Source: Salinimicrobium sediminis (GTDB lineage Bacteria > Bacteroidota > Bacteroidia > Flavobacteriales > Flavobacteriaceae). Taken from it: a DNA stretch of 64,000 bases. The notes beneath the pieces are model-generated. The model saw nothing but the letters and a program-made list of their open reading frames with translations, had not been told where the DNA came from and searched no databases. The stretch spans positions 310,001-374,000 of the forward strand of contig NZ_OCMF01000004.1 of NCBI RefSeq assembly GCF_900215295.1. The letters run 5' to 3'. The position numbers and the translations under genes are program-made. The number at the start of each line of letters is the position of its first letter. The first letter of the stretch is position 1. Shown in pieces: positions 8,368 to 61,353 of this stretch.

Positions 8368-8430
8368 GTCTAGAGTCAAGAACCTAGAGCCAGGACTTTT
8401 TAATTCAAGATTTCGGATTCAGGGTTTAAA
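8368..8430 (+). repeat. Heptanucleotide-periodic array 3' of the nucleoid-associated protein gene
   Basis: Nine consecutive 7-bp words can be read in register: GTCTAGA, GTCAAGA, ACCTAGA, GCCAGGA, CTTTTTA, ATTCAAG, ATTTCGG, ATTCAGG, GTTTAAA. The copies are degenerate but the period is kept. The array fills the space between the stop codon and the hairpin at 8442-8486. The words ATTCAAG and ATTCAGG recur in arrays at 8493-8520 and 51570-51639. Confidence 0.65.
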
Positions 8431-8441
8431 ATCCCTGGAGA

Positions 8442-8486
8442 AAAAGAAGGAGCCTCAAAAATCACATTTTTGAGGCTCCTTCTTTT
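8442..8486. terminator. Bidirectional terminator between convergent genes
   Basis: A 20-bp stem (8442-8461 with 8467-8486), starting AAAAGAAGGAGCC and closed by a 5-nt loop, has A-rich and T-rich ends on both sides. It can terminate the nucleoid-associated-protein gene from the left and the convergent kinase-like gene from the right. Confidence 0.8.
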
Positions 8487-8492
8487 AGAGGT

Positions 8493-8520
8493 AGTCAATC
8501 CTGAATTTTGAATTTTGAAT
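8493..8520 (-). repeat. Heptanucleotide-periodic array 3' of the kinase-like gene
   Basis: Read on the minus strand, starting with the last A of the TGA stop codon, the words are ATTCAAA, ATTCAAA, ATTCAGG, ATTGACT. The same words, also starting from the last A of the stop, follow the decarboxylase gene at 51639. Confidence 0.65.
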
Positions 8521-9581
8521 CATATAAGTCTTTTCATATTCACATCCTCATAATTTCTTTTTACAAAGTCGAGGGCGGTTCTAAGGATTTGTCCCATGGA
8601 GCGGGCTCTTTTGAACTTCATATCATTCGAGAATTCATAGAGTTCTTTTCGCAGCTGCCTTACATTAGGTTCATTGGAGATCTGGTCATTTAGTATACAG
8701 CGCATCAATTCTTTATACCTCGTCTGGGCGTTGATTATTCTCTTTGCAAGTAAAGAACGCTCTTCCCTTCTGTATTGTTCTATTGAATTCTCCTGAAGCT
8801 TTTCCGCAACCAGCTGCACCATCTTAAAGTTCTCCTTAAAGAACTGTGGCCGGTAAACTTTCAGATTCCCTTCATAGCATTGCTGATCAAAATCTATAGC
8901 CCGAATCTGGTACTCCACATGATCAAAATCATGAGTAGGAATGATCACATAATTATAGGATCTCATGTCCCCCAAAAGCCGAATTGTACAGCGTTCATTG
9001 AATTTCACAAACTGCTTGGCGATCTGTGTTTTAGCACGTTCATCACACATAGGCAATTCGTTTTCAATAAATACATCCCCGGGAATTCCGGCAATATGTT
9101 CCTCAATAAGAGTATCGCGGTACACCAGGAAGTTGATCCTGTGAGGAGAAAGTATATGTTCAAATTCAAGCCCGTAAATGCGGGAAGCATCGGCTTTCTT
9201 TACATAGAAATAAGTAAAACTGTCGTTGAGAATATTCCTGACCTTGATCCTGAAAGGCTTTGAATTTCCGAAGGTGCAGTAATCAATAGCATCAACATTC
9301 AGAAATTCCAGGGAATCATCGCTCCCGTCTGAATGCAGGATGGTATATACCTGTTTGAGGCTGTTATCTATGTCATCCCTTTCATAATCCGGGTAATAGC
9401 AACGCACCCAATAAGTATCCTCTTCATGCTGATCGTAGACCACTATTGATCCCGAAAACCGGAGCAGGTCATCATAAAAAACGGGAATTTTTGTATTGCG
9501 ATTGTATTTTGCAAGGTATTTATGAAACCTGTCATTTACGGGAAATGACGGCTTCTTTTTTGACATTAACTTTTCCTGCAT
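8520..9581 (-). CDS. Uncharacterised protein with protein-kinase-like motifs
   Basis: A 353-residue soluble protein I cannot assign to a named family. What can be seen is an ordered set of motifs like those of aminoglycoside-phosphotransferase or HipA-type kinases: a strand with tandem lysines (YFYVKK, 124-129), an acidic helix (GLEFEHIL, 137-144), a hinge-like EEHIAGIPGD (160-169), a catalytic-loop-like GDMRSYN (204-210) and IDFD (229-232), which would be the metal-binding Asp. The C-terminal third is charged and helical. An alternative start is the ATG at 9566 (MSKKK), which has a better purine tract before it. Kinase function is inference. It converges on the nucleoid-associated-protein gene. 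Confidence 0.6.
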   Translation of the reverse strand: MQEKLMSKKKPSFPVNDRFHKYLAKYNRNTKIPVFYDDLLRFSGSIVVYDQHEEDTYWVRCYYPDYERDDIDNSLKQVYTILHSDGSDDSLEFLNVDAIDYCTFGNSKPFRIKVRNILNDSFTYFYVKKADASRIYGLEFEHILSPHRINFLVYRDTLIEEHIAGIPGDVFIENELPMCDERAKTQIAKQFVKFNERCTIRLLGDMRSYNYVIIPTHDFDHVEYQIRAIDFDQQCYEGNLKVYRPQFFKENFKMVQLVAEKLQENSIEQYRREERSLLAKRIINAQTRYKELMRCILNDQISNEPNVRQLRKELYEFSNDMKFKRARSMGQILRTALDFVKRNYEDVNMKRLI

Positions 9582-9671
9582 ACCTTGAATTTCCTCAAAA
9601 ATAAGACTTCTTTTTATTTACGGGTGTAACAAAACGTTAACTTAGACGTCGAATGTTAAAACGCGTTAATT

Positions 9672-10574
9672 TTGAGCACCATACTTCGACTGAATAACCT
9701 TACAAAAAAATATGGACCGGTCACTGCCGTAAAGGATCTGTCTTTTTCCATTGAAAAAGGCAATGTATATGGCATTCTGGGTCCCAACGGGAGCGGAAAA
9801 TCCACAACTCTCGGTATAGTCCTGAATGTTGTGAACAAGACCAGTGGAGATTTCCAATGGTTTGACGGCACCCAAAATACCCATGAAGCCCTTAAGAAAG
9901 TTGGTGCGATCATAGAACGACCCAACTTCTATCCTTATATGACTGCAGCTCAAAACCTGGAGCTGGTTTGTAAAATTAAAAATGTACCTCCTAATAAAAT
10001 TGATGAAAAGCTGGAACTGGTGGGTTTATTAGACAGGAGGAACAGTAAATTTCGCACCTTTTCGCTGGGAATGAAACAGCGGCTTGCTATAGGGTCTGCC
10101 CTTTTAAACGATCCTGAAATTCTCATTTTAGATGAACCTACCAACGGACTCGACCCACAGGGAATTCACCAGATACGGGAGATCATTACCAGGATCGCCG
10201 CCGGCGGAACCACTATTTTGCTGGCATCTCACCTGCTTGATGAAGTTGAAAAGGTGTGTACGCATGTGGTGATCATTAGGAAAGGTGAAAAACTATACAG
10301 TGGGCCGGTGGATCAAATGAACGCCAGCTTCGGATTTTTTGAGCTTAAAGCTGCCAATGAGGAAAAACTACTGGCGCTATTAAATTCTCATCCTGCCATT
10401 GGTAAGGTGAGTCAAAAAGGGGAAATATATACTGCTTTCCTGGAAGAACCGCTGGAGCCGGAAGCTTTAAACACTTACCTTTTTGAAAATGGTCTTATTC
10501 TTTCCCAGCTCGTAAAACGTAAAGAAAGCCTGGAAGAGCAATTCCTGTTGTTAACCAACCAAACCACCGTCTAA
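9672..10574 (+). CDS. ABC transporter ATP-binding protein (TTG start)
   Basis: A 300-residue ABC ATPase of the export type (DrrA/CcmA-like). Walker A is GPNGSGKST (about residues 37-45), the signature is FSLGMKQRL, and Walker B is ILILDEPTNGLDP. The C-terminal 80 residues form the domain usual in this subgroup. The frame has no suitable ATG before the first strand, so the TTG at 9672 is chosen; the ATG at 9653 is out of frame. The stop overlaps the start of the permease gene (TAATG), so the two subunits are translationally coupled. Substrate unknown. Confidence 0.9.
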   Translation: MSTILRLNNLTKKYGPVTAVKDLSFSIEKGNVYGILGPNGSGKSTTLGIVLNVVNKTSGDFQWFDGTQNTHEALKKVGAIIERPNFYPYMTAAQNLELVCKIKNVPPNKIDEKLELVGLLDRRNSKFRTFSLGMKQRLAIGSALLNDPEILILDEPTNGLDPQGIHQIREIITRIAAGGTTILLASHLLDEVEKVCTHVVIIRKGEKLYSGPVDQMNASFGFFELKAANEEKLLALLNSHPAIGKVSQKGEIYTAFLEEPLEPEALNTYLFENGLILSQLVKRKESLEEQFLLLTNQTTV

Positions 10575-11410
10575 TGCTACGATTACTCAACATAGAATAT
10601 CATAAACTAAGGTACAGCAAATCGTCCAAAGTACTTATCACCACCTATTTTATCCTGATCACCTTTATCGCACTAATCGCGTCTATAGAATTTAAATTTG
10701 GAGGGATAAATTTTCGGGTGGCAGATCAGGGGATATTTAATTTTCCATACATCTGGCATTTTAACAGTTATATCGCTGCGCTGCTTAAGCTGTTTCTGGC
10801 TATCGTGATTGTTTCCATGGTTTCCAATGAATACAGCAATCGCACGATCAAACAAAACCTCATCGACGGGCTGAGCAAAAAGGAATTTATCCTTTCAAAA
10901 TTCCTTACAGTGGTCTCTTTTTCCTTTTTATCCACCGTATTCCTTTTCGTTGTATCCCTGATCCTTGGTCTTATATTTTCAGATTATACAGAGATCTCCA
11001 TCATATTTTCTGATATGGAATATCTGCTGGCATATTTTATAAAACTTACAGGATTTTTCGCCTTTTGCATGTTCCTGGGAATGTTGATCAAACGTTCGGC
11101 TTTTGCATTGGGCTTCCTCTTCGTTTGGTGGATCCTCGAAAGCATCGCCCGCGGACTTATGAAATACCAGATCTTCAGGGATACCGATATTGCTGAAAAT
11201 ATAGCACAATTCTTTCCGCTGGAATCTATGGCGCTGCTGGTAAAAGAGCCTTTTTCACGATTGAACGTTATTCAATCGGCGGCTACACAACTGGGATCAG
11301 AATTCACCAAGGACTACGGGGTGCATTGGTATCAATTGTTGGTCGTTATTATTTGGACCGCAATTTTTGTCTATTTCTCCTATTTGCTGCTGAAGAAACG
11401 CGACCTGTAA
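10574..11410 (+). CDS. ABC transporter permease (ABC-2 type)
   Basis: A 278-residue membrane protein with about six hydrophobic segments: one near residues 20-40, then after the EYSNRTIKQNLIDGLS coupling region a cluster from residue 110 to 205 and a last one at 250-270. The EYSNRTIKQNLIDG stretch is characteristic of ABC-2 permeases that pair with DrrA-like ATPases, supplied by the gene immediately upstream (TAATG overlap). It probably acts as a homodimer in the inner membrane. The exported substrate cannot be inferred from context. Confidence 0.87.
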   Translation: MLRLLNIEYHKLRYSKSSKVLITTYFILITFIALIASIEFKFGGINFRVADQGIFNFPYIWHFNSYIAALLKLFLAIVIVSMVSNEYSNRTIKQNLIDGLSKKEFILSKFLTVVSFSFLSTVFLFVVSLILGLIFSDYTEISIIFSDMEYLLAYFIKLTGFFAFCMFLGMLIKRSAFALGFLFVWWILESIARGLMKYQIFRDTDIAENIAQFFPLESMALLVKEPFSRLNVIQSAATQLGSEFTKDYGVHWYQLLVVIIWTAIFVYFSYLLLKKRDL

Positions 11411-11446
11411 GAGCGCTCATCTTTATGATTTTGGGAGCAGGCATAA

Positions 11447-11478
11447 TTTGCCGAAAACCATGGAATTAGCTACTTTTG
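11447..11478 (+). promoter_or_regulatory. Bacteroidota-type promoter of uvrB
   Basis: TTTG at 11447-11450 and TACTTTTG at 11471-11478 are separated by 20 nt, matching the Bacteroidota consensus (-33 TTTG, -7 TAnnTTTG). The -7 box ends 19 nt before the uvrB ATG at 11498. It is the cleanest two-element promoter seen in this window. Confidence 0.75.
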
Positions 11479-11497
11479 CAGGTCAGCAAAAAATTCT

Positions 11498-13501
11498 ATG
11501 AAATTCAAGGTAAAATCTGATTTTAAACCCACCGGGGACCAGCCTCAGGCAATTAGCCAGCTGGTCAACGGCATCAATAATAAAGAGAAATATCAAACCT
11601 TACTTGGAGTAACCGGTTCCGGAAAAACCTTTTCGGTTGCCAATGTCATCCAGGAAGTGCAGAAGCCTACGCTGGTCCTGGCGCACAATAAAACCCTTGC
11701 AGCTCAGCTTTATTCCGAATTCAAGCAATTCTTCCCCGATAATGCCGTGGAATATTTTGTGAGCTACTACGACTATTATCAGCCGGAAGCCTTTATTCCC
11801 ACTTCGGGCACTTATATTGAAAAGGATCTTTCCATAAACGAAGAGCTCGAAAAAATGCGTTTGAGCACTACCTCTTCCCTGCTTTCCGGAAGAAGGGATA
11901 TTATTGTGGTGGCATCTGTTTCCTGTCTCTACGGAATTGGGAATCCCGTGGAATTCAAGAAGAACGTCGTTTCCATTCAGAGAGATATGGTGATCTCCCG
12001 AACTCAATTGCTTCACAGGCTGGTACAGAGTTTATATTCCCGAACTGAAGCCGAATTCAGCCACGGAAACTTTCGTATAAAGGGAGATACGGTTGACATT
12101 TTTCCAAGTTATGCAGATAACGCTTTTAGAGTCCACTTTTTTGGAGACGAGATCGAAGAAATTGAAGCTTTTAATCCTGCTACTAATGACATTATTGAGA
12201 AATACGACCGTTTGAATATCTATCCGGCCAATATGTTCGTGACCTCTCCTGATGTTTTGCAGGGAGCAATAAGAGAAATACAGGACGACCTTGTCAAACA
12301 AGTGAATTACTTCCAGGACATTGGGAAACATCTTGAGGCAAAACGCCTGGATGAGCGAACCAACTTTGATTTGGAAATGATCCGGGAATTAGGTTACTGC
12401 TCCGGAATCGAGAACTATTCCCGTTACCTCGACGGCCGCCTGCCCGGCACCAGGCCATTCTGTTTGCTGGATTATTTCCCGGATGATTATTTAATGGTAG
12501 TGGATGAAAGTCACGTTACCATCCCACAAGTGCATGCCATGTATGGCGGAGACAGGTCTAGAAAAGAGACACTGGTAGATTACGGTTTCAGGTTGCCTGC
12601 AGCTATGGATAACCGTCCGTTAAAATTTGAGGAATTTGAAGCGCTTCAGAATCAGGTGATCTATGTAAGTGCGACGCCGGCAGATTATGAGCTTCAGAAA
12701 ACAGAAGGGATGTATGTTGAACAGGTGATACGTCCTACCGGACTGTTGGATCCTGTGATCGAAGTGCGGCCAAGTCTGAACCAGATCGATGACCTTATCG
12801 AGGAAATGCAACTACGAATTGATAAAGATCAACGAATTCTCGTTACAACGCTTACCAAACGCATGGCCGAAGAGCTTACAAAATATCTTACCCGGATCAA
12901 TATACGTTGCCGTTACATTCACAGTGATGTGGACACCTTGGAGCGGGTGGAAATTATGCAGGACCTTCGAAAAGGGCTTTTTGACGTTCTGGTTGGGGTG
13001 AACCTGTTGAGAGAAGGTCTTGACCTTCCGGAAGTCTCTTTGGTAGCCATTCTGGATGCAGATAAGGAAGGTTTTCTTCGTAGTAACCGTTCCCTTACCC
13101 AAACCATTGGTCGTGCGGCCCGTCATCTGGAAGGAAAAGCTATCATGTATGCAGACAAGATCACAGACAGCATGCAGAAAACGATCGATCAAACCGAGTA
13201 CAGGAGAGAAAAGCAGCTAAAATATAACGCCGATAATAACATCACTCCTACTGCCCTGAAAAAATCTTTCGAAAACATGCTGGTTCGCAAAAAGCCGGAG
13301 CTATATACCTACGAGGTGGCGCCCGATCTTAAAGCTGCGGAAGCGGAAACAGAATACTTCAGCAAACCTCAACTGGAGAAGCGCATCAGGGAAAAACGCA
13401 AGGCAATGGAGTCGGCAGCGAAAGAGCTGGATTTTATGACAGCGGCAAAGTTGCGGGATGAGATCAAAATGCTTCAGGAGAAAGTGCAGACTGCATCATA
13501 A
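11498..13501 (+). CDS. uvrB: UvrABC excinuclease subunit B
   Basis: The 667-residue damage-verification helicase of nucleotide excision repair; it receives DNA from UvrA and recruits UvrC. Motifs are Walker A GVTGSGKT (about residues 38-45), the damage-probing beta-hairpin region YYDYYQPEAFIP, the DESHVTIPQ motif, and helicase motifs through the C-terminal half (QTIGRAAR). The C-terminal UVR domain (EKRIREKRKAMESAAKEL) that binds UvrC is complete. Length matches the family. It has its own promoter (11447-11478). I see no SOS-type operator. Confidence 0.97.
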   Translation: MKFKVKSDFKPTGDQPQAISQLVNGINNKEKYQTLLGVTGSGKTFSVANVIQEVQKPTLVLAHNKTLAAQLYSEFKQFFPDNAVEYFVSYYDYYQPEAFIPTSGTYIEKDLSINEELEKMRLSTTSSLLSGRRDIIVVASVSCLYGIGNPVEFKKNVVSIQRDMVISRTQLLHRLVQSLYSRTEAEFSHGNFRIKGDTVDIFPSYADNAFRVHFFGDEIEEIEAFNPATNDIIEKYDRLNIYPANMFVTSPDVLQGAIREIQDDLVKQVNYFQDIGKHLEAKRLDERTNFDLEMIRELGYCSGIENYSRYLDGRLPGTRPFCLLDYFPDDYLMVVDESHVTIPQVHAMYGGDRSRKETLVDYGFRLPAAMDNRPLKFEEFEALQNQVIYVSATPADYELQKTEGMYVEQVIRPTGLLDPVIEVRPSLNQIDDLIEEMQLRIDKDQRILVTTLTKRMAEELTKYLTRINIRCRYIHSDVDTLERVEIMQDLRKGLFDVLVGVNLLREGLDLPEVSLVAILDADKEGFLRSNRSLTQTIGRAARHLEGKAIMYADKITDSMQKTIDQTEYRREKQLKYNADNNITPTALKKSFENMLVRKKPELYTYEVAPDLKAAEAETEYFSKPQLEKRIREKRKAMESAAKELDFMTAAKLRDEIKMLQEKVQTAS

Positions 13502-13591
13502 AGTGTTAAATTATTTATAGAAGCCTCTGCTTCAGAAGAATAAATATTTATATTTAATTCTCTTTGGTGCCTCCCCACAATACTTTCAGCT

Positions 13592-14803: not shown

Positions 14804-14814
14804 ACTTAAGAAAG

Positions 14815-14970
14815 ATTTTGGCTAAAGCCCTGCTGATATTTTAATTCTAAATCCTCCGGGTAAATCCGGGGGCAATTCATGGAATCCATATTAATCTTTC
14901 CGGGGAATTGAATTACCTCCGCCTTTAGGCGGAGGTTAAGAAGCCGCTATTCCAAGGGCTTTAGCCCAAC
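14815..14970. repeat. REP-like intergenic element with nested palindromes
   Basis: Terminal inverted repeats TTGGCTAAAGCCCT (14818-14831) and AGGGCTTTAGCCCAA (14955-14969) enclose an imperfect CCTCCGGG/CCGGGGG hairpin (14854-14873) and a perfect ACCTCCGCCT/AGGCGGAGGT stem (14915-14936). Such modules resemble Bacteroidota REP sequences mobilised by Y1 (RAYT) transposases. No transposase is nearby. It fills the convergent gap between the secreted repeat protein and the acyl-CoA synthetase, and may also act as a terminator. Confidence 0.6.
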
Positions 14971-14987
14971 TGGATTTCAGATTCAAT

Positions 14988-22093: not shown

Positions 22094-22783
22094 ATGGAGG
22101 TAATTTCAGAAAAACGAGAGGTTTCAGCTGCTGAAATAGCACAGCTGAATCAAAAATACAAAGACCTCAACCTTCACCAGAGAATTTCAGAATTATATAA
22201 TGATTTTAATGAGGCAGAAGTGATGTTAACCAGTTCATTTGCTGCCACCTCTGCTTTTCTGCTCAAACTATTTTCTGATGTTAACAGGAATCAGCTTGTT
22301 TACTTCATTGACACCGGATACCATTTTGAACAAACTCTGGAATATAAGGAGCAGCTAACAGAACTCTATGGGCTGCGGGTAAAATCTATTAGTGCGGTGA
22401 AGGAAGAACACGAGTTCACCAAAACTGACGAGACCTGGAAGAAGAATCCCGATTTTTGCTGTTACATCAATAAAGTTAAGCCGCTGGACCTCATAAAATC
22501 CAAATATACCGTTTGGGTAAGCGGATTAATGGAGTGGCAAAGCGACCATAGGGCCACATTAGATATTTTTGAACAGAGAGGAGAGATCCTGAAATTTTAT
22601 CCTCTCTTAGATGTTTCAAAAAAAGAACGGAACGAATTCATTGAAAAACATCAATTGCCTTTTCACCCTCTTGTGGCAAAAGGATATCATTCTATTGGCT
22701 GCTCCCACTGCACTGTAGCAGGTGATGAACGTAGCGGCCGCTGGAATAACAATCCCAAGACAGAATGTGGGTTACATCTGTAA
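22094..22783 (+). CDS. cysH: Phosphoadenylyl/adenylyl-sulfate reductase, Fe-S (APS) type
   Basis: Reduces activated sulfate to sulfite in assimilation, using thioredoxin. The 229-residue protein has TSSFAATSA and DTGYHFEQT (PAPS-reductase core) and all cysteines of the [4Fe-4S] APS-reductase subtype: Cys122-Cys123, Cys203-x2-Cys206, and the catalytic Cys225 in the C-terminal ECGLH. It should therefore use adenylyl-sulfate rather than PAPS. The partner sulfurylase genes are not in this window. It forms an operon with the DUF1456 gene, and a heptad array and hairpin follow. Confidence 0.93.
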   Translation: MEVISEKREVSAAEIAQLNQKYKDLNLHQRISELYNDFNEAEVMLTSSFAATSAFLLKLFSDVNRNQLVYFIDTGYHFEQTLEYKEQLTELYGLRVKSISAVKEEHEFTKTDETWKKNPDFCCYINKVKPLDLIKSKYTVWVSGLMEWQSDHRATLDIFEQRGEILKFYPLLDVSKKERNEFIEKHQLPFHPLVAKGYHSIGCSHCTVAGDERSGRWNNNPKTECGLHL

Positions 22784-22793
22784 CTTTAAAGAC

Positions 22794-22828
22794 CCAGGAA
22801 CCTGTAGGCAGGAATCAGGACATGACAT
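22794..22828 (+). repeat. Heptanucleotide-periodic array 3' of cysH
   Basis: Five 7-bp words in register, CCAGGAA, CCTGTAG, GCAGGAA, TCAGGAC, ATGACAT, start 10 nt after the cysH stop and run up to the terminator hairpin at 22834. The first, third and fourth share CAGGA. Confidence 0.5.
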
Positions 22829-23731: not shown

Positions 23732-23858
23732 GACAGTTCGTTTTTAGTTATTGATTATTGATTGATGTTATACCTTAAAGACTGCCGGGATATATTTCTT
23801 GTTACAGTACTATTTTCTTCTTAACTACAATTTAACATTTTAGATTCTGCATAAAAAA

Positions 23859-31981: not shown

Positions 31982-32689
31982 ATGGACGTGCCGAAAAATC
32001 ATATTGTTATTTTGAAAAGACCTTTGTACCTGATTCTTATAATGATTCCCCTACTTGCGGGAAACTGGAGTTGTGCAGCAAAAAAAGACATGGAAGAAAA
32101 AAAGATCGTATATCAGAAAAATAAGATAATTCCCGAAAGTATTTTGAATGAAGCTAAGATCGCGCTTTCTTACTATCCCGAACTGGAAGATGTGGAAATA
32201 GAGTTTAAGTTCAAGGAGGATATCAAGAAGTCGTTCATGCAGGCACAGCCAAAAGTTAGCAACCTCTTTAAGGGCAGGAAACATCGAAGCTATTATGTCT
32301 TTATGAGCAGTAAGTTTGCTATTGAAAAGGAAGAATTCTCTATGGCCGACGTGCCTCCGGAAGTTCTCATTGGATGGCTGGGGCATGAACTTGGACATAT
32401 TATGGATTACCGCGATAAATCGGCTATGGGGCTGGTGATCTTCGGCTTAAGGTATATCACTTCTGCCAATTACATTAAACAAGCCGAACGCGCTGCCGAT
32501 ACATTCGCTGTTAAAGGCGGCATGGGAGAATATATTCTTGCCACCAAGAATTTTATCCTGAACCATTCCCATCTCTCAGATTCCTACAAGGCACGCATTG
32601 CCAGACTTTATCTTTCGCCTGACGAGATCCTGGTGCTGGTCAACAAATTGGAAGCAGACCTGGAAGAAGCGGAACGGGAAGGAGGGTGA
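31982..32689 (+). CDS. Putative M48-like metallopeptidase, tandem copy A
   Basis: A 235-residue exported protein. An N-terminal hydrophobic segment (about 14-27) leads to GNWSCAAKK, where Cys31 could be lipidated, although the residues before it do not form a canonical lipobox. A zinc-binding HELGH motif is at 135-139 and a downstream Glu in QAERAAD (Glu169) could be the third ligand, as in gluzincins. It is a close paralogue of the next gene (32865-33647). Envelope metallopeptidase is the best guess; substrate unknown. A heptad array starts just after the stop. Confidence 0.75.
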   Translation: MDVPKNHIVILKRPLYLILIMIPLLAGNWSCAAKKDMEEKKIVYQKNKIIPESILNEAKIALSYYPELEDVEIEFKFKEDIKKSFMQAQPKVSNLFKGRKHRSYYVFMSSKFAIEKEEFSMADVPPEVLIGWLGHELGHIMDYRDKSAMGLVIFGLRYITSANYIKQAERAADTFAVKGGMGEYILATKNFILNHSHLSDSYKARIARLYLSPDEILVLVNKLEADLEEAEREGG

Positions 32690-32691
32690 TT

Positions 32692-32726
32692 GAGTAATGA
32701 GTAATGAGTAATGAGTAATGAGTAAT
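32692..32726 (+). repeat. (GAGTAAT)5 tandem repeat between the two metallopeptidase genes
   Basis: Five exact copies of GAGTAAT begin 3 nt after the stop codon of copy A. Rotated, the word is TAATGAG, one base different from the TATTGAG word at 51217. Every frame meets a stop codon within the array. Confidence 0.95.
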
Positions 32727-32864
32727 GTGAAATTTTCTTTAGAGTTAGTACCACGATTTTCCCTGAAATAATATTCCTGAAAAAGGGAGACCATCATAGG
32801 TTGTGGCACGCTGGTTGATTTACTAACTATTAAATTTCTCTAACCAGCACGCAGCCCCTCTTCT

Positions 32865-33647
32865 ATGAAAATTTTTAAAAAATCCGGTTTCTTTTGGCAC
32901 CTCTCATTTCAGGATTTACAAAAATTAAAATTCCCCAGATCCATTAAAAAAATTATTTTTTTCACGTTGATTTTACCTTTCCTCGCAGGGAATTGGAGTT
33001 GTGCTGCAAAGAAAAATTATCAGGAGAATAAAACTGTTCACCGGGGAAATAAAACAATTCCAAAAACCATTCTGGAGGAAGCGACCATCGCCCTCTCACA
33101 TTATCATGAACTCGAAGAGGTAGAAATAGAGTTTAGATATAAAAGCAACATCAAAAATGCCTTTATGCAGGCACAGCCAAAATTCTCTAATCTGTTCAAA
33201 AGCAAAAAAAACCGTGGCTATTATGTTTTTATGAGTAATAAATTTCTCATTGAGGACGAAGAATTTTCTATGGCCGATGTGCCTTTAGAAGTCCTTATCG
33301 GCTGGTTGGGTCACGAGCTGGGACATATTGTAGATTATACAGATAAATCGGCAATGGGACTGGTGATATTTGGAACCCGATATATTGCTTCAGAAAAATT
33401 TATCAAAAAAGCTGAACGAACAGCAGATACCCACGCTATAAATCACGGGATGGGCAATTATATTTTTTCAACGAAAGATTTTATTCTTAACCACTCCGGT
33501 CTGTCCGAATCCTATAAGAAAAGAAAAGCCCGCCTTTACCTCTCTCCCCAGGAGATCCTGGTACTAGTAAATGGCCTGGATGAAGAAGTTGCGGCGGAAT
33601 TAGATGAAGAACTTATTTTAGAATTAGAAGAAGAACCGGAAAGCTAA
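32865..33647 (+). CDS. Putative M48-like metallopeptidase, tandem copy B
   Basis: A 260-residue paralogue of the preceding protein, with the same AGNWSCAAKK exit (Cys46), FMQAQPKFSNLFKSKK, SMADVPLEVLIGWLG, HELGH and ERTAD. The N-terminus is longer and more basic than that of copy A (residues 1-30 precede the hydrophobic segment), so a later start is possible. The acidic C-terminus (EEDEELI-type run) is much richer in Glu than in copy A. The duplication seems recent relative to other paralogues here, as long blocks remain identical. A heptad repeat follows the stop. Confidence 0.75.
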   Translation: MKIFKKSGFFWHLSFQDLQKLKFPRSIKKIIFFTLILPFLAGNWSCAAKKNYQENKTVHRGNKTIPKTILEEATIALSHYHELEEVEIEFRYKSNIKNAFMQAQPKFSNLFKSKKNRGYYVFMSNKFLIEDEEFSMADVPLEVLIGWLGHELGHIVDYTDKSAMGLVIFGTRYIASEKFIKKAERTADTHAINHGMGNYIFSTKDFILNHSGLSESYKKRKARLYLSPQEILVLVNGLDEEVAAELDEELILELEEEPES

Positions 33648-33653
33648 ATCAAT

Positions 33654-33687
33654 GTATATTGTATATTGAATATGTATATTGTAGAAT
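33654..33687 (+). repeat. Heptad array (GTATATT) 3' of metallopeptidase copy B
   Basis: GTATATT at 33654-33660, 33661-33667 and 33674-33680, with a six-base slip between the second and third copies, then GTAGAAT. It begins 6 nt after the stop. Confidence 0.6.
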
Positions 33688-33785: not shown

Positions 33786-33820
33786 AATTATTCCCTGTTA
33801 ATTGTTTATTGTTTATTGTT
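33786..33820 (-). repeat. Heptad array running through the stop codon of the GH3 gene
   Basis: On the minus strand the words are AACAATA, AACAATA, AACAATT, AACAGGG, AATAATT. The first two lie in the coding region: they encode the final Asn-Asn-Lys-Gln and supply the TAA stop (33808-33806). The array thus starts before the stop, unlike the others. Confidence 0.65.
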
Positions 33821-35344
33821 CATTGAACTCACAAATTCCTCCCACTCCGCAAATTTTTCTTCGTTCATCACCTTTTCCATTTTTACCTGTCCGCCCTTCT
33901 TTTTGTTGGTGGCGCTCCATTCGGTAAAAACTTTGGGAGAAACGGCAACTACTTCCACTCCTTTTAAGGCTTTACTTCGGGCTACACCGTAGTTTTTATT
34001 TGCCGCCTTAAGTTCTTTATCCAGCGCTTCGGCGAGTTCTTCCTCTCCTGCTTTTCCTTCCTCAATTCCTAAATACCATTTATGGATATAATCTCCTTCG
34101 GAATTCTTTACAGCTGCAACTGTAAATTCCGGAATGGTGATATCAAACTGCTGCTCCAGTTCCTTCACAGCATCATTCATTTTGTTGACGGACAATTGAG
34201 ACCCTACCACATTAAGGAAGAATTTTGTCCTTCCGGTGATCCTGATCTCGTGCCTTTCAACATCTGTAAATTTTACGGTGTCTCCTATAAGGTATCTCCA
34301 CGCCCCAGATACAGTGCTGATAAGCAGCACGTAATCTACTTCGGGCTCTACATCTTCTAAAAGCACAACAGGGGCTTCAGGTTTGATGGAACCATCTTCA
34401 GCAATATATTCAGGTTTAAAGGGAACAAATTCGAAATAGATCCCGTTGTCCACTACCAGCTTCATCGAGTGAGTTTCGGGACGGGACTGGAAGGCCATGA
34501 ACCCTTCAGAAGCAAGGTAAGTGTCGATCACCACAAGCGGATGAGCCACGAGTTTCTCAAATGCTTTTTCATAGGGTTCAAAGGCCACTCCGCCTGTGGT
34601 ATAGACCATTAGATTTGGCCAGATCTCATGAATATTCTGCGCATTATGATATTCCAGGATCTTTTTGATCATTAACTCGGTCCAGGAAGGAATGCCGGAC
34701 ATAGCTCCAATATCCCAGTTCTTCGCCTCTTTTGCAATCTCCAGGACCCGCTCGTCCCAATTTTCTATCTGTGATATTTCTACTCCGGGTTTATAAAAAT
34801 TCCGGAACCAAAAAGGAATATTGCTGGCGCTAATCCCACTTATCTCCCCTTCCTCATGGTCTTCCACCTTATTAAGATCTGTAGAACTCCCCAGCATCAT
34901 GATCTCCTTTGTAAAAAAATCTGACGGCAATTCGTAGTTCGCCAGAGATCCTACCTGCTTGATCCCGGTTTGACGAATGGCTTCTACCATATCATCTGTT
35001 ACCGGAATCCTTTTACTGGATTTTCCGGTGGTTCCCGAACTTAGTGCAAAATATGGCGGCTTCCCCGGCCAGGTAACATTTTCTTCCCCCGCATGCATCC
35101 TGCTCCACCATTCCTCATTGATTTTGTTGTAATTAAAATAAGGGACTTTTTCAGCAAAAGCCTTTTTTACATTCTCACTACCAAGGATCTCTTCAAAATT
35201 ATAATTTTGTCCAAAAGCAGTATCCTTTGCTTTTTCAAGAAGGTCTCTCAAAACCTTTTCCTGAGCTTCAACAGCATCGGGTTCAGAAACCACTGCATCT
35301 CTTGCATGAATTAATCCTTTAATAATTGATCCTATAACGGCCAT
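33806..35344 (-). CDS. GH3 auxin-responsive-promoter family protein
   Basis: A 512-residue member of the GH3 acyl-adenylate family (ANL-like fold). The ATP-binding motif SSGTTGKSSKRIP is present, with later YTTGGVAFEPYEKAF and GRTKFFLNVVGSQLS blocks. Plant GH3 enzymes conjugate auxin or jasmonate to amino acids; bacterial members are common in Bacteroidota and their acceptors are not established. There is no signal peptide, so it is cytoplasmic. It is convergent with the metallopeptidase pair and has no obvious operon partner. The last four residues are encoded by a heptad repeat. Confidence 0.87.
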   Translation of the reverse strand: MAVIGSIIKGLIHARDAVVSEPDAVEAQEKVLRDLLEKAKDTAFGQNYNFEEILGSENVKKAFAEKVPYFNYNKINEEWWSRMHAGEENVTWPGKPPYFALSSGTTGKSSKRIPVTDDMVEAIRQTGIKQVGSLANYELPSDFFTKEIMMLGSSTDLNKVEDHEEGEISGISASNIPFWFRNFYKPGVEISQIENWDERVLEIAKEAKNWDIGAMSGIPSWTELMIKKILEYHNAQNIHEIWPNLMVYTTGGVAFEPYEKAFEKLVAHPLVVIDTYLASEGFMAFQSRPETHSMKLVVDNGIYFEFVPFKPEYIAEDGSIKPEAPVVLLEDVEPEVDYVLLISTVSGAWRYLIGDTVKFTDVERHEIRITGRTKFFLNVVGSQLSVNKMNDAVKELEQQFDITIPEFTVAAVKNSEGDYIHKWYLGIEEGKAGEEELAEALDKELKAANKNYGVARSKALKGVEVVAVSPKVFTEWSATNKKKGGQVKMEKVMNEEKFAEWEEFVSSMNNKQ

Positions 35345-39414: not shown

Positions 39415-39435
39415 AATCTTATTTCTTTATAAAGA

Positions 39436-50492: not shown

Positions 50493-51209
50493 ATGAAATT
50501 ATCCATTTCTTCGGAATTCCGGAAAGTAGCGCTTCTCAATTATATCGTACCGCCGGAAGTTGTTGAAAAATACCTGCCAAAGTACACGAAACCCGATCTT
50601 TTCAACGGAAATTGCTATATAAGTCTAGTAGGATTTCAGGTTAAAAAGCTGAAAGTAAATGACTTAAAAGTGCCTATGATAAAGGATCTGGACGAAATAG
50701 ACCTGCAGATCTATGTGAAACGCTTTGATGGTGCAAGTTGGGTCAAAGGAGTGGTAGTGATCTCCCGGCTCTTTGATCAACCCGGGCTAGCAGAATTGAC
50801 TAATACGCTTTTTAAAACCAACTACACATCTGTGCCTGCTATGGGCGAAGTAAACGAAACTGAAAAAAGTATCGAAGTAAAATATTCATGGCAGCTCAAT
50901 GGGAAAGAGCAAAAATTCAGCGTAAAGAGCAACAAACTGGCAGCGCCATATGATAAAGATACTGAAGCTGCCTTCCTGCTCGATAGGCCTTTCGGATTTA
51001 TTAAAGCCGGCGAGGAAGAAACTTACCTATATGCTATTAAACATGCTTCCTGGCATTTGTACACCGTGGAAGAATATGCAGTAAATGTGGATTTTTCACG
51101 GCAATTCGATCCTGTCTTCAACATCTTAAACTCTAGGGTGCCCCATTCGGTTATTCTCACAGAAGGTTCTACAGTGGAGATTGGGGAAAATGTGGAAGTG
51201 AGTAGTTAG
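50493..51209 (+). CDS. DUF2071 domain protein
   Basis: A 238-residue cytoplasmic protein of the YqjF/DUF2071 family: LNYIVPPEVVEKYLPKYTKPD, CYISLVGFQVKKLK, and VKGVVVISRLFDQPG are typical. Function is not established; it resembles acetoacetate-decarboxylase-like folds, which I infer from family lore. The stop lies immediately before a TATTGAG heptad array. No operon partner; the next gene is convergent, 429 bp away. Confidence 0.78.
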   Translation: MKLSISSEFRKVALLNYIVPPEVVEKYLPKYTKPDLFNGNCYISLVGFQVKKLKVNDLKVPMIKDLDEIDLQIYVKRFDGASWVKGVVVISRLFDQPGLAELTNTLFKTNYTSVPAMGEVNETEKSIEVKYSWQLNGKEQKFSVKSNKLAAPYDKDTEAAFLLDRPFGFIKAGEEETYLYAIKHASWHLYTVEEYAVNVDFSRQFDPVFNILNSRVPHSVILTEGSTVEIGENVEVSS

Positions 51210-51216
51210 TAGTTAG

Positions 51217-51279
51217 TATTGAGTATTGAGTATTGAGTATTGAGATTTGAGATGTGAGATTTGAGATATAGAATTTTTG
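51217..51279 (+). repeat. Heptad array 3' of the DUF2071 gene
   Basis: Four exact TATTGAG copies (51217-51244) are followed by ATTTGAG, ATGTGAG, ATTTGAG, ATATAGA and ATTTTTG in the same register. The array starts 8 nt after the stop codon. Confidence 0.85.
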
Positions 51280-51280: not shown

Positions 51281-51480
51281 TTCTCGCAAAGGGCGCAAAG
51301 ATTCCGAAAAGGGCGCACAGCTGCCGTTTTTGAATTCCGAAATTCCGGAATCTTCAAATTATTCGAATCGCCCTATTATCAAATTCGCTTTTTCCCGCAG
51401 ATTTCGCAGATTAGCGCAGATTTTAGAAACAGAAAATCATTGCTCTCAAAGCGCACAAAGATTCCGCCAAGGGAGCAAAA
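51281..51480. repeat. Two diverged 40-bp copies of a CGCAAAG-rich repeat
   Basis: Copy one is 51281-51320 and copy two 51441-51480. They align without gaps at 31 of 40 positions, both containing AAAGATTCCG. A different motif, CGCAGATT-like and repeated with variation, lies between them (51396-51424). Confidence 0.6.
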
Positions 51481-51569
51481 CCATGCGACTTTTTTTCACC
51501 CCAGTCTATTTTCAAATTCTCAAATTCTCAAATTTATTTCTCCGGATTTTGAATAGTAATTAAAATAAT

Positions 51570-51639
51570 CTTGAATCTTGAATCTTGAATTTTGAATTTT
51601 AAATCCTGAATTTTAAATCCTGAATTTTAAATCCTGAAT
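51570..51639 (-). repeat. Heptad array 3' of the PLP decarboxylase gene
   Basis: On the minus strand, starting with the last A of the TAA stop, the words are ATTCAGG, ATTTAAA, ATTCAGG, ATTTAAA, ATTCAGG, ATTTAAA, ATTCAAA, ATTCAAG, ATTCAAG. The first six form 14-bp units. Confidence 0.85.
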
Positions 51640-53024
51640 TATCCCATCGTTCCCAAAATCAGATCAATGTCAGCCTCGGTGGTTTCAGGGTTGATAAAGC
51701 AGAAACGGGATATTGTTTCATAGCCGTTCTTTCCATACCATTTTGTCGGGGTTACCAATGCAATTCCGGCTTTGTGGTTTCTGTAGGTCCAATCCCGGTA
51801 TTCCTCCGGAGTCCAGCCTTTTCTCCGGAAAAGAACCACAGACAAACTTGCCGGCCTTACCAGTTCCAGGTTTTCATGCTCCTCAATCTTTTTGGCTGCG
51901 ATCTTCGCCAGTTCAATGCCTTTTTCGATAGCATTAGTGTATTTATCAGTTCCATGCATGGCCAGGGAAAACCACAACGGCATTCCCCGAAGTCTGCGGG
52001 TAAGCTGTATCTGATAATCAGCAGGATTGAAGCCATGGGCACCCTCATCCTTAAAAATTTCAAGATAGGATCCTTTTTGAGAATGTGCTTCTGCAGCCAG
52101 TTCCATATTCTTATAGATCACCGCCCCACAATCATAGGGCGAAAAAAGCCATTTATGAGGATCGATAGTAATACTGTCTGCCCGTTCAATTCCGTTGAAG
52201 AGGTGGCGCACAGAGGGTGCAGCGAGGGCACCTCCGCCATAGGCTGCATCTACATGGAACCATACATTCTCCTTCTCGCAAACTTCGGCAATAGAATCAA
52301 GTTCGTCAATAATCCCGGCATTGGTAGTACCACCCGTGGCTACCACTCCAAAAAGCCTTTTTCTGTCTTTTTCTCCCAATTCATCAATAGCTGACTGCAA
52401 TATGCCTCCACGAAGATTTTCATCGGGGCAATCGATCATCACCACATCTGCATCCATAACCTTGGCCATTGCCTGGATAGAGGAATGTGCTCCATTTGAG
52501 GTTAACAGCAACGCCCGCACCCCAATATTTCCTGTATCTCTTTTCCGCCAGGCTTCTCTGGCAGTGACCATAGCCGAAAGGTTTGCAGCCGTTCCGCCAC
52601 TGGTGAATACTCCGAAGGAATCTTTAGGCAGTCCGGTGAGGGAAACCAGCCACTTCATAGCCTGATTTTCACAAAAGATCCCGCCGGCACCCTCCATCCA
52701 ATAGGCACCATGGATACTAGAAGCTGAAGTCACAAGGTCGAACATGATCGCAGCACGCGTAGGCGCAGCCGGAACAAAAGCCAGATGTCGGGGATGGTCA
52801 ATAGGCACGGTTGCCTTTACCAGAATATCCCGAAACATCTTAAAGGCTACTTCTCCCCCAATTCCTTTGGGAGTGACGGTTTCCCCAATCATTTCGAAAA
52901 GTTCCTCCTCTTTTTTCGGAACACCGAGTTCGGGGGTTATATTTGAAATTCTGTCAATAGTATATTTCATCACATCGAGGGTCATTTCAACCAGTTCGAT
53001 GTCGATCTTATGCATTTTGTTCAT
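51639..53024 (-). CDS. Pyridoxal-dependent (group II) amino-acid decarboxylase
   Basis: A 461-residue fold-type I PLP enzyme of the aromatic-amino-acid/glutamate decarboxylase group. VFTSGGTAANLSAM, WFHVDAAYGGGALAAP and the PLP-lysine block SITIDPHKWLF are present, with FVPAAPTRAA near the N-terminus. Possible substrates are aromatic L-amino acids, glutamate or 2,4-diaminobutyrate; the sequence does not settle which. Its ATG overlaps the bshC stop by four bases (ATGA), so it is coupled to bshC and transcribed with it. A heptad array follows the stop. Confidence 0.88.
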   Translation of the reverse strand: MNKMHKIDIELVEMTLDVMKYTIDRISNITPELGVPKKEEELFEMIGETVTPKGIGGEVAFKMFRDILVKATVPIDHPRHLAFVPAAPTRAAIMFDLVTSASSIHGAYWMEGAGGIFCENQAMKWLVSLTGLPKDSFGVFTSGGTAANLSAMVTAREAWRKRDTGNIGVRALLLTSNGAHSSIQAMAKVMDADVVMIDCPDENLRGGILQSAIDELGEKDRKRLFGVVATGGTTNAGIIDELDSIAEVCEKENVWFHVDAAYGGGALAAPSVRHLFNGIERADSITIDPHKWLFSPYDCGAVIYKNMELAAEAHSQKGSYLEIFKDEGAHGFNPADYQIQLTRRLRGMPLWFSLAMHGTDKYTNAIEKGIELAKIAAKKIEEHENLELVRPASLSVVLFRRKGWTPEEYRDWTYRNHKAGIALVTPTKWYGKNGYETISRFCFINPETTEADIDLILGTMG

Positions 53025-57258: not shown

Positions 57259-57259
57259 T

Positions 57260-58213: not shown

Positions 58214-58231
58214 TACTGAAATAAATTCTGA

Positions 58232-61063
58232 ATGAGATCAATTAAATTTCATATTCTGGCTTTCCTGTTCACTATTGTGGCAGGACAAGCCTGGTCTCAG
58301 CAAGTCGCTGAAGCAACCGGTTTTGAAGTAGATTTTGAAACCTTCACTCTTGATAACGGATTAAAAGTGATTTTTCACGTAGATCGTTCTGATCCTGTTG
58401 TGGCCGTAGCCTTGACCAGCCATGTAGGTTCTTCCCGTGAAAAGGAAGGAAGAACAGGTTTTGCTCACCTTTTTGAGCACCTGTTATTCCTGGAGTCTGA
58501 AAACCTCGGGAAAGGCGGACTGGATAAACTTAGTGCGCGTATTGGAGGAAGTGGTGCTAATGGTTCCACCAGCCGCGACCGCACCAACTATTTCCAGACA
58601 GTACCTAATGACGCCCTGGAGAAAATGCTCTGGGCAGAGGCCGATAAACTGGGCTACTTCATCAACACGGTTACTGAACCTGTACTCGCAAAAGAAAAGC
58701 AGGTGGTGAAAAACGAAAAAAGACAAAGTGTTGACAACCGTCCTTACGGCCATACCCAATATGTCATCGACAAGAATCTTTATCCCAAAGATCATCCCTA
58801 CAACTGGCAGGTAATTGGTTCTCTTGAAGACTTGCAAAATGCCACTTTAGGAGACGTAAAGGAATTCTTTAACCGCTGGTATGTTCCGAATAACGTAATT
58901 CTTACCGTTGCCGGGGATTTTGATAAGGATCAGGCAAAGGGATGGGTAGAAAAATATTTTGGGGAGATCAAAAGAGGCCCTGCAATTCCTGAACTTGAAA
59001 AACAACCTGCCAACCTGCAACAGATCAAAAAGTTGTATTACGAAGACAATTTTGCTCGCCTGCCCGAGCTTACCTATGCATGGCCAACTGTACCTTCATA
59101 TCACAAAGATGCCTATGCCCTGGAAGTATTGGCTAGTTATTTGGCCGATGGAAAGAATGCCCCCTTTTATAAGGAATTGGTAGCAGAACAAAAGCTCACC
59201 CCTAACGTGCAGATGTACAATTACACTTCAGAACTGGCGGGACAGCTGATGATGGAAATTCAGGCCTACGATGGAAAGGATCTGGATAGTGTTCACGCTG
59301 CCGTAGAAAAAACCTTCAAAAAATTTGAAGCAGAAGGTATTTCAGAAAAAGACCTGAAACGTATCAAAGCCGGGCAGGAAACTGCATTTTACAATAGTCT
59401 TTCCAGTGTTTTAGGCAAAGGTTTTCAACTTGCACAATATGAAATTTTCGCCAATGATCCCAATATGATCAATAAAGAAATCGATTTCATTCTTGCTGTC
59501 ACTCCCGAAGATGTGATGAGAGTTTATAAAAAATATGTGCAGGATAAACCATTTGTGGTTACCAGTTTTGTTCCAAAAGGTCAGACAGAGTTTGCGCTGG
59601 AAAATTCGCAGCTTGCTGAAGTTGAAGAGGAGCAGATCGTGATGGGAGCCGAACAGGAATTTGATTTGGAAGAGGAAGTGACTTATGAGAGAACTCCTTC
59701 CAGTTTTGATCGTACCGTAGAACCTCCTTATGGCAACAGCCCTAAGGTAAAGGTTCCGGAGATTTGGGAAGAAAACCTTTCTAACGGACTGGAGATCTAC
59801 GGGATCACTAATTCTGAAGTGCCGCTGGTGCAATTCATGTTGGAGATTAAAGGCGGAATGTTGCTGGAAGATCCTTCCACAACAGGGGTTTCAAATCTAC
59901 TCGCCAATTTGTTGACCAAAGGCACCAGGAATAAGACTCCGCAGGAGCTTGAGGAAGCCATTGAGCTGTTGGGCGCAACGATTAGGGTGAATGCCACAGA
60001 TGAAAAGATCATTATTAGCGGCAGCACACTTTCTAAAAATTACGAAGCGACCCTGGCTCTTGTAGAAGAGATCCTTTTAGAACCACGTTGGGATACTGAA
60101 GAGTTTGAGCTTACAAAGCAACAGGTGATAAGCCGGATTCAGCAGCAAAAAGCCTCTCCGAATAACATAGCTGCCAATGAGTTTAAAAAGCTTATTTATG
60201 GCACCAGTCACATCCTGGCCAATGACAATCTTGGCACAGAAGAATCGGTGCAAAGAATCACAATGAAAGACCTCCAGGATTATTACACCAATAACCTGTC
60301 CCCTAACCTTGCCTCTTTTCTTGTCGTGGGAGATATTGAACAGGATCGTGCGGTGACAGGAGTGAAGGACCTGACCGCAGATTGGAGTGTCAAAAAGGTG
60401 AATTTTAAAGACCTTCCGGAATTGGCCGCTCCGGAAAAATCCAGGGTGTATTTCTATGACGTACCTGGTGCAAAGCAATCTGTACTGCATATAGGGTATC
60501 CTGCCCTGGCAGAGACAGATGAAGATTTCTTTCCGGCTACTATCATGAACTATCGTTTGGGCGGTGGAAGTTTTGCTTCACAACTCACTCAGGAACTCAG
60601 AGAAGGAAAAGGTTATACTTACGGAATACGTTCAGGATTTGACGGCAGCACCTTAAAAGGTCCTTTTTTGATCTCCAGCGGCGTGCGTTCCAACATTACT
60701 TATGAAGCTGTGGACCTTGTAAAGCAGATCCTGGAAAATTATCCGAAGAATTTTAATGAGCAGGACCTGGAGGTTACCAAAGGTTTCATGACCAAAAGTA
60801 ACGCCCGTAAATTTGAAACTTTAGGTTCAAAACTGCAGATGCTTAGAGAAATAAGCAACTTTAACAGGCCTAAGGACTTTGTATTACAGCAGGAAGAAAC
60901 AGTAAGAAAAATTACTGTTCCACAGATCAAGGCCCTGGCCGAAAAGTATGTTGATCCAAATAAAATGTATTACCTGATCGTAGGAGATGCAGCAACCCAG
61001 CTGGATCGTCTTGAACAGTTAGGTTTTGGAAAACCGGTTTTGCTTAATGGGGAGGTAAAATAA
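58232..61063 (+). CDS. Secreted M16-family zinc peptidase, two domains fused
   Basis: A 943-residue exported pitrilysin/insulinase-family protein with a signal peptide (1-22, ending WSQ). The N-terminal half has the inverted zinc motif HLFEH (79-83) inside GFAHLFEHLLFL, and ENxxR-like EKRQSVDNRPYG downstream. The second half (about 500-943) is a related M16 domain in which I see no HxxEH, so it probably serves as the non-catalytic half. It is last in the M14 - antiporter - M16 operon. A heptad array and terminator follow. Confidence 0.92.
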   Translation: MRSIKFHILAFLFTIVAGQAWSQQVAEATGFEVDFETFTLDNGLKVIFHVDRSDPVVAVALTSHVGSSREKEGRTGFAHLFEHLLFLESENLGKGGLDKLSARIGGSGANGSTSRDRTNYFQTVPNDALEKMLWAEADKLGYFINTVTEPVLAKEKQVVKNEKRQSVDNRPYGHTQYVIDKNLYPKDHPYNWQVIGSLEDLQNATLGDVKEFFNRWYVPNNVILTVAGDFDKDQAKGWVEKYFGEIKRGPAIPELEKQPANLQQIKKLYYEDNFARLPELTYAWPTVPSYHKDAYALEVLASYLADGKNAPFYKELVAEQKLTPNVQMYNYTSELAGQLMMEIQAYDGKDLDSVHAAVEKTFKKFEAEGISEKDLKRIKAGQETAFYNSLSSVLGKGFQLAQYEIFANDPNMINKEIDFILAVTPEDVMRVYKKYVQDKPFVVTSFVPKGQTEFALENSQLAEVEEEQIVMGAEQEFDLEEEVTYERTPSSFDRTVEPPYGNSPKVKVPEIWEENLSNGLEIYGITNSEVPLVQFMLEIKGGMLLEDPSTTGVSNLLANLLTKGTRNKTPQELEEAIELLGATIRVNATDEKIIISGSTLSKNYEATLALVEEILLEPRWDTEEFELTKQQVISRIQQQKASPNNIAANEFKKLIYGTSHILANDNLGTEESVQRITMKDLQDYYTNNLSPNLASFLVVGDIEQDRAVTGVKDLTADWSVKKVNFKDLPELAAPEKSRVYFYDVPGAKQSVLHIGYPALAETDEDFFPATIMNYRLGGGSFASQLTQELREGKGYTYGIRSGFDGSTLKGPFLISSGVRSNITYEAVDLVKQILENYPKNFNEQDLEVTKGFMTKSNARKFETLGSKLQMLREISNFNRPKDFVLQQEETVRKITVPQIKALAEKYVDPNKMYYLIVGDAATQLDRLEQLGFGKPVLLNGEVK

Positions 61064-61066
61064 CCC

Positions 61067-61101
61067 TTTGGAAGGTTGAAAGCCTAAGGTCTAAGGATTA
61101 A
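61067..61101 (+). repeat. Heptad array 3' of the M16 peptidase gene
   Basis: Words in register are TTTGGAA, GGTTGAA, AGCCTAA, GGTCTAA, GGATTAA, each ending in AA and starting 4 nt after the stop. A terminator hairpin (61118-61140) follows. The signal is degenerate. Confidence 0.5.
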
Positions 61102-61117
61102 TATGATCATAATAAAA

Positions 61118-61140
61118 AATGCCCGGAGATTCCGGGCATT
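61118..61140. terminator. Bidirectional terminator between the M16 peptidase gene and phoU
   Basis: AATGCCCGGA (61118-61127) pairs with TCCGGGCATT (61131-61140), with an AAAAAA run on the left and TTTTTT on the right, so it works on both strands. Confidence 0.9.
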
Positions 61141-61325
61141 TTTTATTACACCCTGAATTTAGAGAGGGAGATTCGGAAAGCAAAGGGACACAGAAAGGGG
61201 ATTAAATTGGTTTTTTTGAGACAAATTATATTTCGTCCCTACAAGACATGACTGGTTTACAGGATAATTTACCCATCATTAATTCTAACATTCAAATTCT
61301 CAAATCTTCATATTCTCAAATCCAA

Positions 61326-61353
61326 TTGAAATTTGGTACTTGAAATTTGGTGC
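61326..61353 (-). repeat. Direct repeat of 14 bp (two heptads) 3' of phoU
   Basis: TTGAAATTTGGTAC (61326-61339) and TTGAAATTTGGTGC (61340-61353) abut with one mismatch, 5 nt after the phoU stop. Further left the sequence remains rich in ATTTGAG-like words (61285-61320), but the 7-bp register breaks there. Confidence 0.7.

Follow-up and report, generated by a model that had tools for sequence, protein, structure and literature searches.

The window analysed here is a stretch of 64,000 nucleotides from contig 4 of the 3.48-Mb genome of Salinimicrobium sediminis (G000), in which a preliminary description had listed ten gene ends closely followed by repeats with a 7-bp period. For a protein of the window, the best matches with a species name are from Salinimicrobium (Flavobacteriaceae), headed by S. 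nanhaiense at 96% identity. All ten ends were recovered by a simple codon-usage gene caller, for which stops are exact and starts approximate, and nine of the ten belong to convergent pairs, as had been described. Using TRF and a lag-7 test (threshold 9), a 7-bp array was detected at six of them. On the plus strand, a TGAGTAA array of 5.3 units (32691..32727) begins 1 nt past the stop of the gene ending at 32689, in a tandem spacer, and a TGTATAT array of 4.6 units (33653..33683) lies 5 nt past the stop of the gene ending at 33647. Also on the plus strand, a TTGAGTA/TTGAGAT array (51199..51267) runs from the last codons of a DUF2071 gene through and beyond its stop at 51209. On the minus strand, a TTCAAAA array of 2.7 units (8502..8520) adjoins the stop of gene 8520-9581, an array reading AACAATA/AACAATT (33796..33825) spans the stop codon of a GH3-family gene (33806-35344), and a 7/14-bp array composed of TTCAGGATTTAAA and TTCAAGA (51567..51640) adjoins the stop of a decarboxylase gene (51639-53024).

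The remaining four ends were less regular. Just beyond the stop of a phoU-like gene (61359-62042, minus strand) lies a 14-bp repeat of 2.1 copies (61326..61355) without a clear 7-bp array, and next to it is an 8/16-bp array at 61291-61322. At 8357, 22783 and 61063 the listed repetition amounted to a loose likeness of words, and neither TRF nor the lag-7 test at threshold 9 detected an array. Past the stop at 8357 are the plus-strand heptads CTAGAGT, CAAGAAC and CTAGAGC (8370..8397), at the place of which relatives carry related words, and past the stop at 22783 are CAGGAAC and CAGGAAT (22797..22824, plus strand), both sets falling below the threshold. Additionally, a short 7-bp array absent from the earlier list was found at 23737..23763 in a tandem spacer, with no strand assigned and with gene edges 44 and 141 nt away. 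Other periods occur within heptad-bearing spacers at 51396-51423 (9 bp) and 51508-51534 (8 bp).

The search was extended to a sample comprising the window and 34 further stretches of the same genome (686,439 bases). Its 90 kb of spacer contained 39 intergenic segments at lag 7 and 39 at lag 14, while every other lag from 4 to 15 gave 0-5; dinucleotide shuffles gave 0.1 lag-7 segments each. The 581 kb of coding sequence held five lag-7 segments and four at lag 6. Heptanucleotides were thus in excess over other unit lengths, as in heptanucleotide simple sequence repeats. The 39 segments were distributed over convergent (15), tandem (12) and divergent (12) spacers, corresponding to approximately 0.92, 0.25 and 0.45 per kb of spacer, respectively. 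The excess of matches at lags 7, 14 and 21 was significant in all three spacer types, and in tandem and divergent spacers lags 3, 6, 9 and 12 were raised too. No equal signal was seen at 5′ ends: in the 60 nt past stops the z-scores were 10.1 (lag 7) and 11.5 (lag 14), compared with 0.3 and 2.1 in the 60 nt ahead of starts. The lag profile after stops was nearly unchanged when the window was left out, and a phase-locked logo of the sequence past stops contained a weak period-7 signal in G only. The initial observation of period-7 arrays at gene ends was therefore largely right, and it reaches past the window. One divergent spacer of 1266 nt in this genome (L004:16818-18084) contains about ten different heptad arrays, including GGTTGCG repeated 22 times.

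Position tests favoured a shared process with a 7-bp period that is linked to gene ends, as the preliminary description had suggested. Convergent spacers of at least 100 nt held 19 arrays, and 12 of these lay within 8 nt of a stop, when uniform placement in 2000 simulations gave a mean of 1.7 and a maximum of 7. The corresponding counts were 9 of 15 arrays without the window (1.4 expected), only 2 of 6 in a second Salinimicrobium genome, G010 (0.3 expected), and 16 of 41 in S. xinjiangense (1.6 expected). The latter assembly bears the labels G319 and G011, and its regions were chosen for holding CAGTGNTC arrays, so that its array densities are biased. In convergent spacers of at least 200 nt in G000, arrays occupied 18-19% of bases less than 50 nt from a stop, 9% at 50-75 nt and at most 2% deeper. 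Among the 17 arrays in tandem spacers of G000, four were within 8 nt of the upstream stop and three within 8 nt of the downstream start. Counting edges with an array within 30 nt, stops led starts in G000 (23/301 against 8/363), G010 (5/171 against 3/205), G319 (36/172 against 8/196), other Salinimicrobium (21/171 against 0/201) and Aequorivita (14/159 against 4/193). Starts are therefore not array-free, and since they carry the same words mirrored, though more rarely, "gene edges" describes the arrangement better than "gene ends". In the G319 sample, nine lag-8 and seven lag-15 segments were found beside 94 lag-7 segments, almost all of them in tandem spacers.

The words themselves had been thought unrelated from locus to locus. 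Instead, they recur in a consistent orientation from locus to locus and between species; in the direction leading away from the stop they include AGTGNTC, AGTATTG, AAGGTTY, ACAATTA, GAGAT-type words and others, and AGTGNTC behaves as a dispersed element. To compare orientations each locus was counted once, five overlapping named loci having been removed. When read outward from the gene, 79 of 83 stop-edge arrays matched other stop-edge arrays better than when reversed. Start-edge arrays read away from the start, i.e. antisense to the gene, fitted the stop-edge lexicon in 17 of 19 cases (p = 7e-4), and mid-spacer arrays read from the nearer edge did so in only 84 of 140 (p = 0.02). The polarity was also evident in single genomes, both in G000 (stop-edge 20/23, start-edge 7/8) and in G319 (31/36 and 7/8). 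Thus, arrays of recurrent 7-bp words begin at gene edges, mainly at stops, and read 5′ to 3′ into the spacer from either edge. Because start-edge arrays draw on the same lexicon in antisense to their gene, the polarity belongs to the gene edge rather than to transcription, and a function of the arrays at the RNA level is weakened as a candidate. An inward array orientation would suit Chi-like polar sites, a putative parallel.

Relatives were next compared at corresponding places. Between the window and six relatives, the spacer at 51210 carried an array in 6 of 7 genomes, the spacer at 33648 in 3 of 3 and the spacer at 8358 in 4 of 5, with differing words; the spacers at 39415, 18426 and 22784 carried an array in none of the genomes compared. 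Array-free spacers tended to be short and steady in length. At the prfB end, an array starting no more than 12 nt past the stop was present in 7 of 11 Salinimicrobium genomes, in words of at least four kinds (AGTGNTC, AAGGTT, GAGATTT and ATTGAAT-type). At the efp end, 8 of 12 Salinimicrobium genomes had an array, mostly AGTGNTC and in one case CCAAATT, and within the efp-lpxD spacer the AGTGNTC array is followed by a short A-rich stretch and then by a second family facing back from the lpxD start. Unit number at efp varied between relatives, as in heptanucleotide simple sequence repeats, with four units in G000, G003, G005 and G009, seven in G011 and fewer in G007. At a given gene end, then, word, unit number or presence differed between species, and the efp and prfB ends provide natural variant sets inside one genus.

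More widely in the family, lag-7 segments were counted across 80 named loci. There were 26 in Aequorivita (0-3 at other lags, lag 14 excepted), seven in Salinimicrobium, three in Leeuwenhoekiella, three in Galbibacter (which also had four at lag 8) and one in the 37 kb of spacer from Christiangramia; these loci contained none in Gillisia, Salegentibacter or Zunongwangia. Random stretches totalling 400 kb of G010 held eight. Of 299 family genomes, 23 contained the exact 21-mer of one word; a search of 199 genomes for a three-unit AGTGNTC pattern had hits in 11, G000 included. Among the matches listed, AGTGNTC arrays outside Salinimicrobium were mostly uniform in N and occupied few loci, as slippage would give.

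Within Salinimicrobium, the three-unit AGTGNTC pattern had matches in 9 of 12 genomes, with at least 19 loci in G000 and at least 24 in G003 among the places listed. We inspected 41 arrays, all 19 of G000 and 22 of the 24 of G003. Thirty (14 and 16, respectively) were in sense with the first AGT no more than 25 nt past a stop; one was antisense by a stop, one in sense upstream of a start and two antisense upstream of a start, and none of the 41 lay inside a gene. The element's own TAG formed the stop codon in 13 arrays and its TGA in two. With a search pattern that requires at least three units, there were seven arrays of three units, 28 of four, three of five and three of six.

Nine of the 19 G000 loci matched a G003 AGTGNTC locus in place. 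To assess conservation, 14 pairs were hand-picked from the alignments where the element was in register; one lacked an anchor, leaving 13 counted pairs, four of them from one locus. In these, N differed at 24/52 sites, the other six positions at 37/312 and the next 45 nt at 164/492; without the out-of-register pair L276/L179 the values were 20/48, 19/288 and 142/450. Both locus lists were found by the pattern itself, so the pairs favour intact copies, and those left out include the decayed L284/L014, L288/L033 and L269/L191 as well as others such as L268/L285 and L288/L198. The efp set, which was fetched by protein, gave 9/16 for N and 4/96 for the other positions, counted in the 4 of 11 other genomes that have the full element; G004, G007 and G010 have a decayed or shortened copy, and G001, G002, G006 and G008 have none. 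Because frame sites differ less than the flank while N often differs, the AGTGNTC frame is better kept than its surroundings, whether by selection or by recopying, and the N position, the seventh, is free.

Two further observations concern this element. In a pool rich in AGTGNTC arrays, all six copies found of a C-rich hairpin (CCCCCGCTGAACAGCGGG and related sequences; L203:9646-, L211:10056+, L285:2048- and 2276-, L288:1999+, L301:1464-) came no more than 45 nt after such an array; the hairpin may represent another dispersed element, one targeting AGTGNTC. At L264 (1609 and 1930-), and likewise at L207 and L301, one AGTGNTC array lies in sense past the first stop and a second lies antisense, 8 nt before the next start; we take the flanking genes at L264 to be ffh (first) and folD (second). 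The N letters of this antisense copy are identical in three species.

Bacteria have long been known to contain heptamer repeats, for which no cause is generally accepted. The preliminary description knew of no established role, and we found none in the literature searched; heptamer arrays at stop codons, on the other hand, have already been described. GGGAATC and GGGGA(C/T)T heptamers of Xanthomonas and Nostoc form arrays near and overlapping stop codons (Rehm et al. 2015, PMC4692102), and as that report presents them they share with Salinimicrobium the placement in sense past stops and antisense before starts and, with AGTGNTC, a preference for four units. They differ in consisting of a single G-rich word, interpreted as forming a quadruplex, whereas Salinimicrobium uses many words without G-runs, no word listed at its stop edges having three consecutive G residues, and has different words at the ends of orthologous genes. 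Beggiatoaceae, cyanobacteria and a few Bacteroidetes carry TAACTGA direct repeats (MacGregor 2015, PMC4679880), which are similarly 7 nt long, intergenic, sometimes overlapping a stop codon and missing from relatives at the same place, and the same source mentions other heptamer arrays beside TAACTGA in Gramella and Aequorivita. In its account, however, a single word lies mostly just upstream of starts, forward to the gene in BOGUAY, and a translational role is suggested; TAACTGA was not among the words at stop edges here, where arrays favour stops over starts. Period 7 was the commonest among the long simple sequence repeats of Mrazek 2007, for which slippage was proposed, and tandem heptanucleotides are known from Calothrix; in the introductions of PMC4692102 and PMC4679880, through which both are cited, edge polarity and word change are not among the features described. 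Some abundant families of prokaryotic satellites are heptamer-derived, e.g. (GATAGRA)n in Chloroflexus (PMC6749651), and these are portrayed there as long and spread by transposition, with no gene-edge link in the portion of the account available. Heptanucleotide arrays, and the edge anchoring of G-rich words, are therefore of an already known kind. Among the matches listed from the open-licence literature searched, we found no oriented lexicon of many words, no word change at orthologous ends and no four-unit element lacking G-runs, nor any account of edge-arranged heptads in Flavobacteriaceae.

Period, place and inward direction persist while the word changes, which argues against one-word explanations such as a quadruplex or a single regulator. 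We tentatively prefer, short of considering it probable, an explanation in which slippage by 7 nt is combined with the copying of arrays from one edge to another in the course of repair synthesis. Units would arise as DNA 3′ ends that point into the spacer slip by 7 nt while being extended in repair or restart; at a break within a spacer both 3′ ends would point inward, giving the mirror polarity, and words could move between edges when a 3′ end pairs with another array and is extended along it. Coding sequence would set the selective limit, so that arrays start directly at the stop codon or come to include it, and the four-unit AGTGNTC would persist either because it is copied anew time after time or because selection favours something that reads most of its positions. 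Slippage with copying would yield mirror polarity, a shared lexicon and word replacement at one place together, and is consistent with the specificity of the period, the edge anchoring, the word change at prfB, efp and the window spacers, the two edge arrays that face each other across the A-rich stretch of efp-lpxD and the uniform N of AGTGNTC outside Salinimicrobium among the matches listed. The break, the repair event and the copying step are nevertheless inferred. It does not predict the mode of four units (28/41), which a reader of four heptads would explain, and the 9 of 19 AGTGNTC loci shared with a related species look more like stable inheritance than steady replacement. Moreover, an array stood between the stop and an intrinsic terminator in 11 of the 12 cases having both, so a terminator can persist, and arrays are few in G010 (8 per 400 kb) and almost missing from sister genera. 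Slippage preferring 7 nt and acting neutrally, merely tolerated in unconstrained spacers, is in keeping with the near absence of arrays from coding sequence and with the short, steady array-free spacers; in many genomes, moreover, long repeats are most often heptanucleotides, and polymerase slippage has been proposed (Mrazek 2007, as related in PMC4679880). On its own this is unlikely, because it fails to account for polarity and anchoring: a common orientation, recurrent words, a four-unit mode and the concentration of arrays less than 75 nt from stops in spacers of at least 200 nt are not predicted by it.

A rather doubtful, though possible, alternative to slippage with copying is that the arrays are selected gene-boundary sites at which a factor reads tandem heptads directionally, typically four AGTGNTC units, with other words read by the same or sister factors. 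The predominance of four units and the position of 30/41 arrays in sense within 25 nt of a stop fit such sites, as do the nine loci kept in a relative although their alignable flank differs at 164/492 positions and the freedom of N relative to the frame, both in the 13 hand-picked pairs and at efp. Against this, the pattern-found lists are biased towards intact loci and decayed orthologues exist (L284/L014, L288/L033 and the efp copies of G004, G007 and G010), the upstream genes look unrelated when their sequences are judged by eye, words change between close species and the reader is hypothetical. Among dispersed short elements, REP sequences mobilized by RAYT transposases also favour gene 3′ ends; they are palindromic and have a dedicated Y1 transposase. 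Movement of a REP-like element by a Y1 transposase is improbable here. AGTGNTC and Y1_Tnp matches correlate across the 12 Salinimicrobium genomes (Spearman 0.71, p = 0.01, uncorrected for ancestry), and the C-rich hairpin follows AGTGNTC in every copy within the AGTGNTC-rich pool. However, the words are direct 7-bp repeats rather than palindromes, the hairpin being separate and present after some copies, AGTGNTC lies beside none of the four Y1_Tnp loci checked, and G001 has four Y1_Tnp matches and no AGTGNTC while G009 presents the reverse. Safety stop codons, which would recur in all frames since 7 is not a multiple of 3, are very improbable as the purpose of the arrays. Several words do contain a stop triplet, and the stop codons at edges with an array within 6 nt (27 TAG, 23 TAA and 12 TGA, n = 62) depart from those of 1519 genes (340, 968 and 211; p = 2e-5). 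Yet in G000 stop frequencies at +7, +14 and +21 showed no clear excess, at 8, 8 and 7% against a mean of 6%, with 10 and 12% at +13 and +20, the TGA of AGTGNTC depends on its freely varying N, and start edges carry the words mirrored. Formation of G-quadruplexes or other G-run structures, as for the GGGAATC repeats, is the faintest of these prospects: read inward, stop-edge arrays have G over C in 62 cases and the reverse in 18, but their words contain no GGG run, the N of AGTGNTC is free, and ACAATTA, TTCAAGA and CCAAATT are G-poor. Telomerase-like or reverse-transcribed repeats were rejected because G000 has no RVT_1 match at E <= 0.001; six of the 12 genomes have one.

Taken together, the arrays point either to a polar process acting on DNA where genes border spacers or to a reader of four-heptad sites. 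On a broader and distinctly speculative view, more apt to be wrong than right, bacterial gene edges would carry a polar boundary code in which tandem heptads on either side point into the spacer, and a dedicated factor would read them or a dedicated repair pathway would write them. The word would be interchangeable and the period, place and direction would not; GGGAATC, as used by Xanthomonas and Nostoc, would then count as a dialect of this code, and its quadruplex explanation would be incidental.

Finally, other spacer features were compared. Replacement of intrinsic terminators by arrays was rejected, as terminators occurred in 11/38 array-bearing and 35/90 other convergent spacers in the pooled samples (p = 0.32); the proportions were 3/18 and 23/42 in G000 (p = 0.01) and 7/18 and 7/20 in G319, using a rule that missed a hairpin at approximately 8440-8486 of the window. 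A candidate element of about 40 nt with the core ACCGCTYCGCT was likewise set aside, with no copies in the G000 and G010 samples and two in G319. In Aequorivita, a stop-codon frequency of 23% at +28 stood out as odd. The sequence AAATGTCATTT occurs in 10-12 distinct spacers per sample (G000, G319), where it resembles one side of the loop of a terminator hairpin that recurs.
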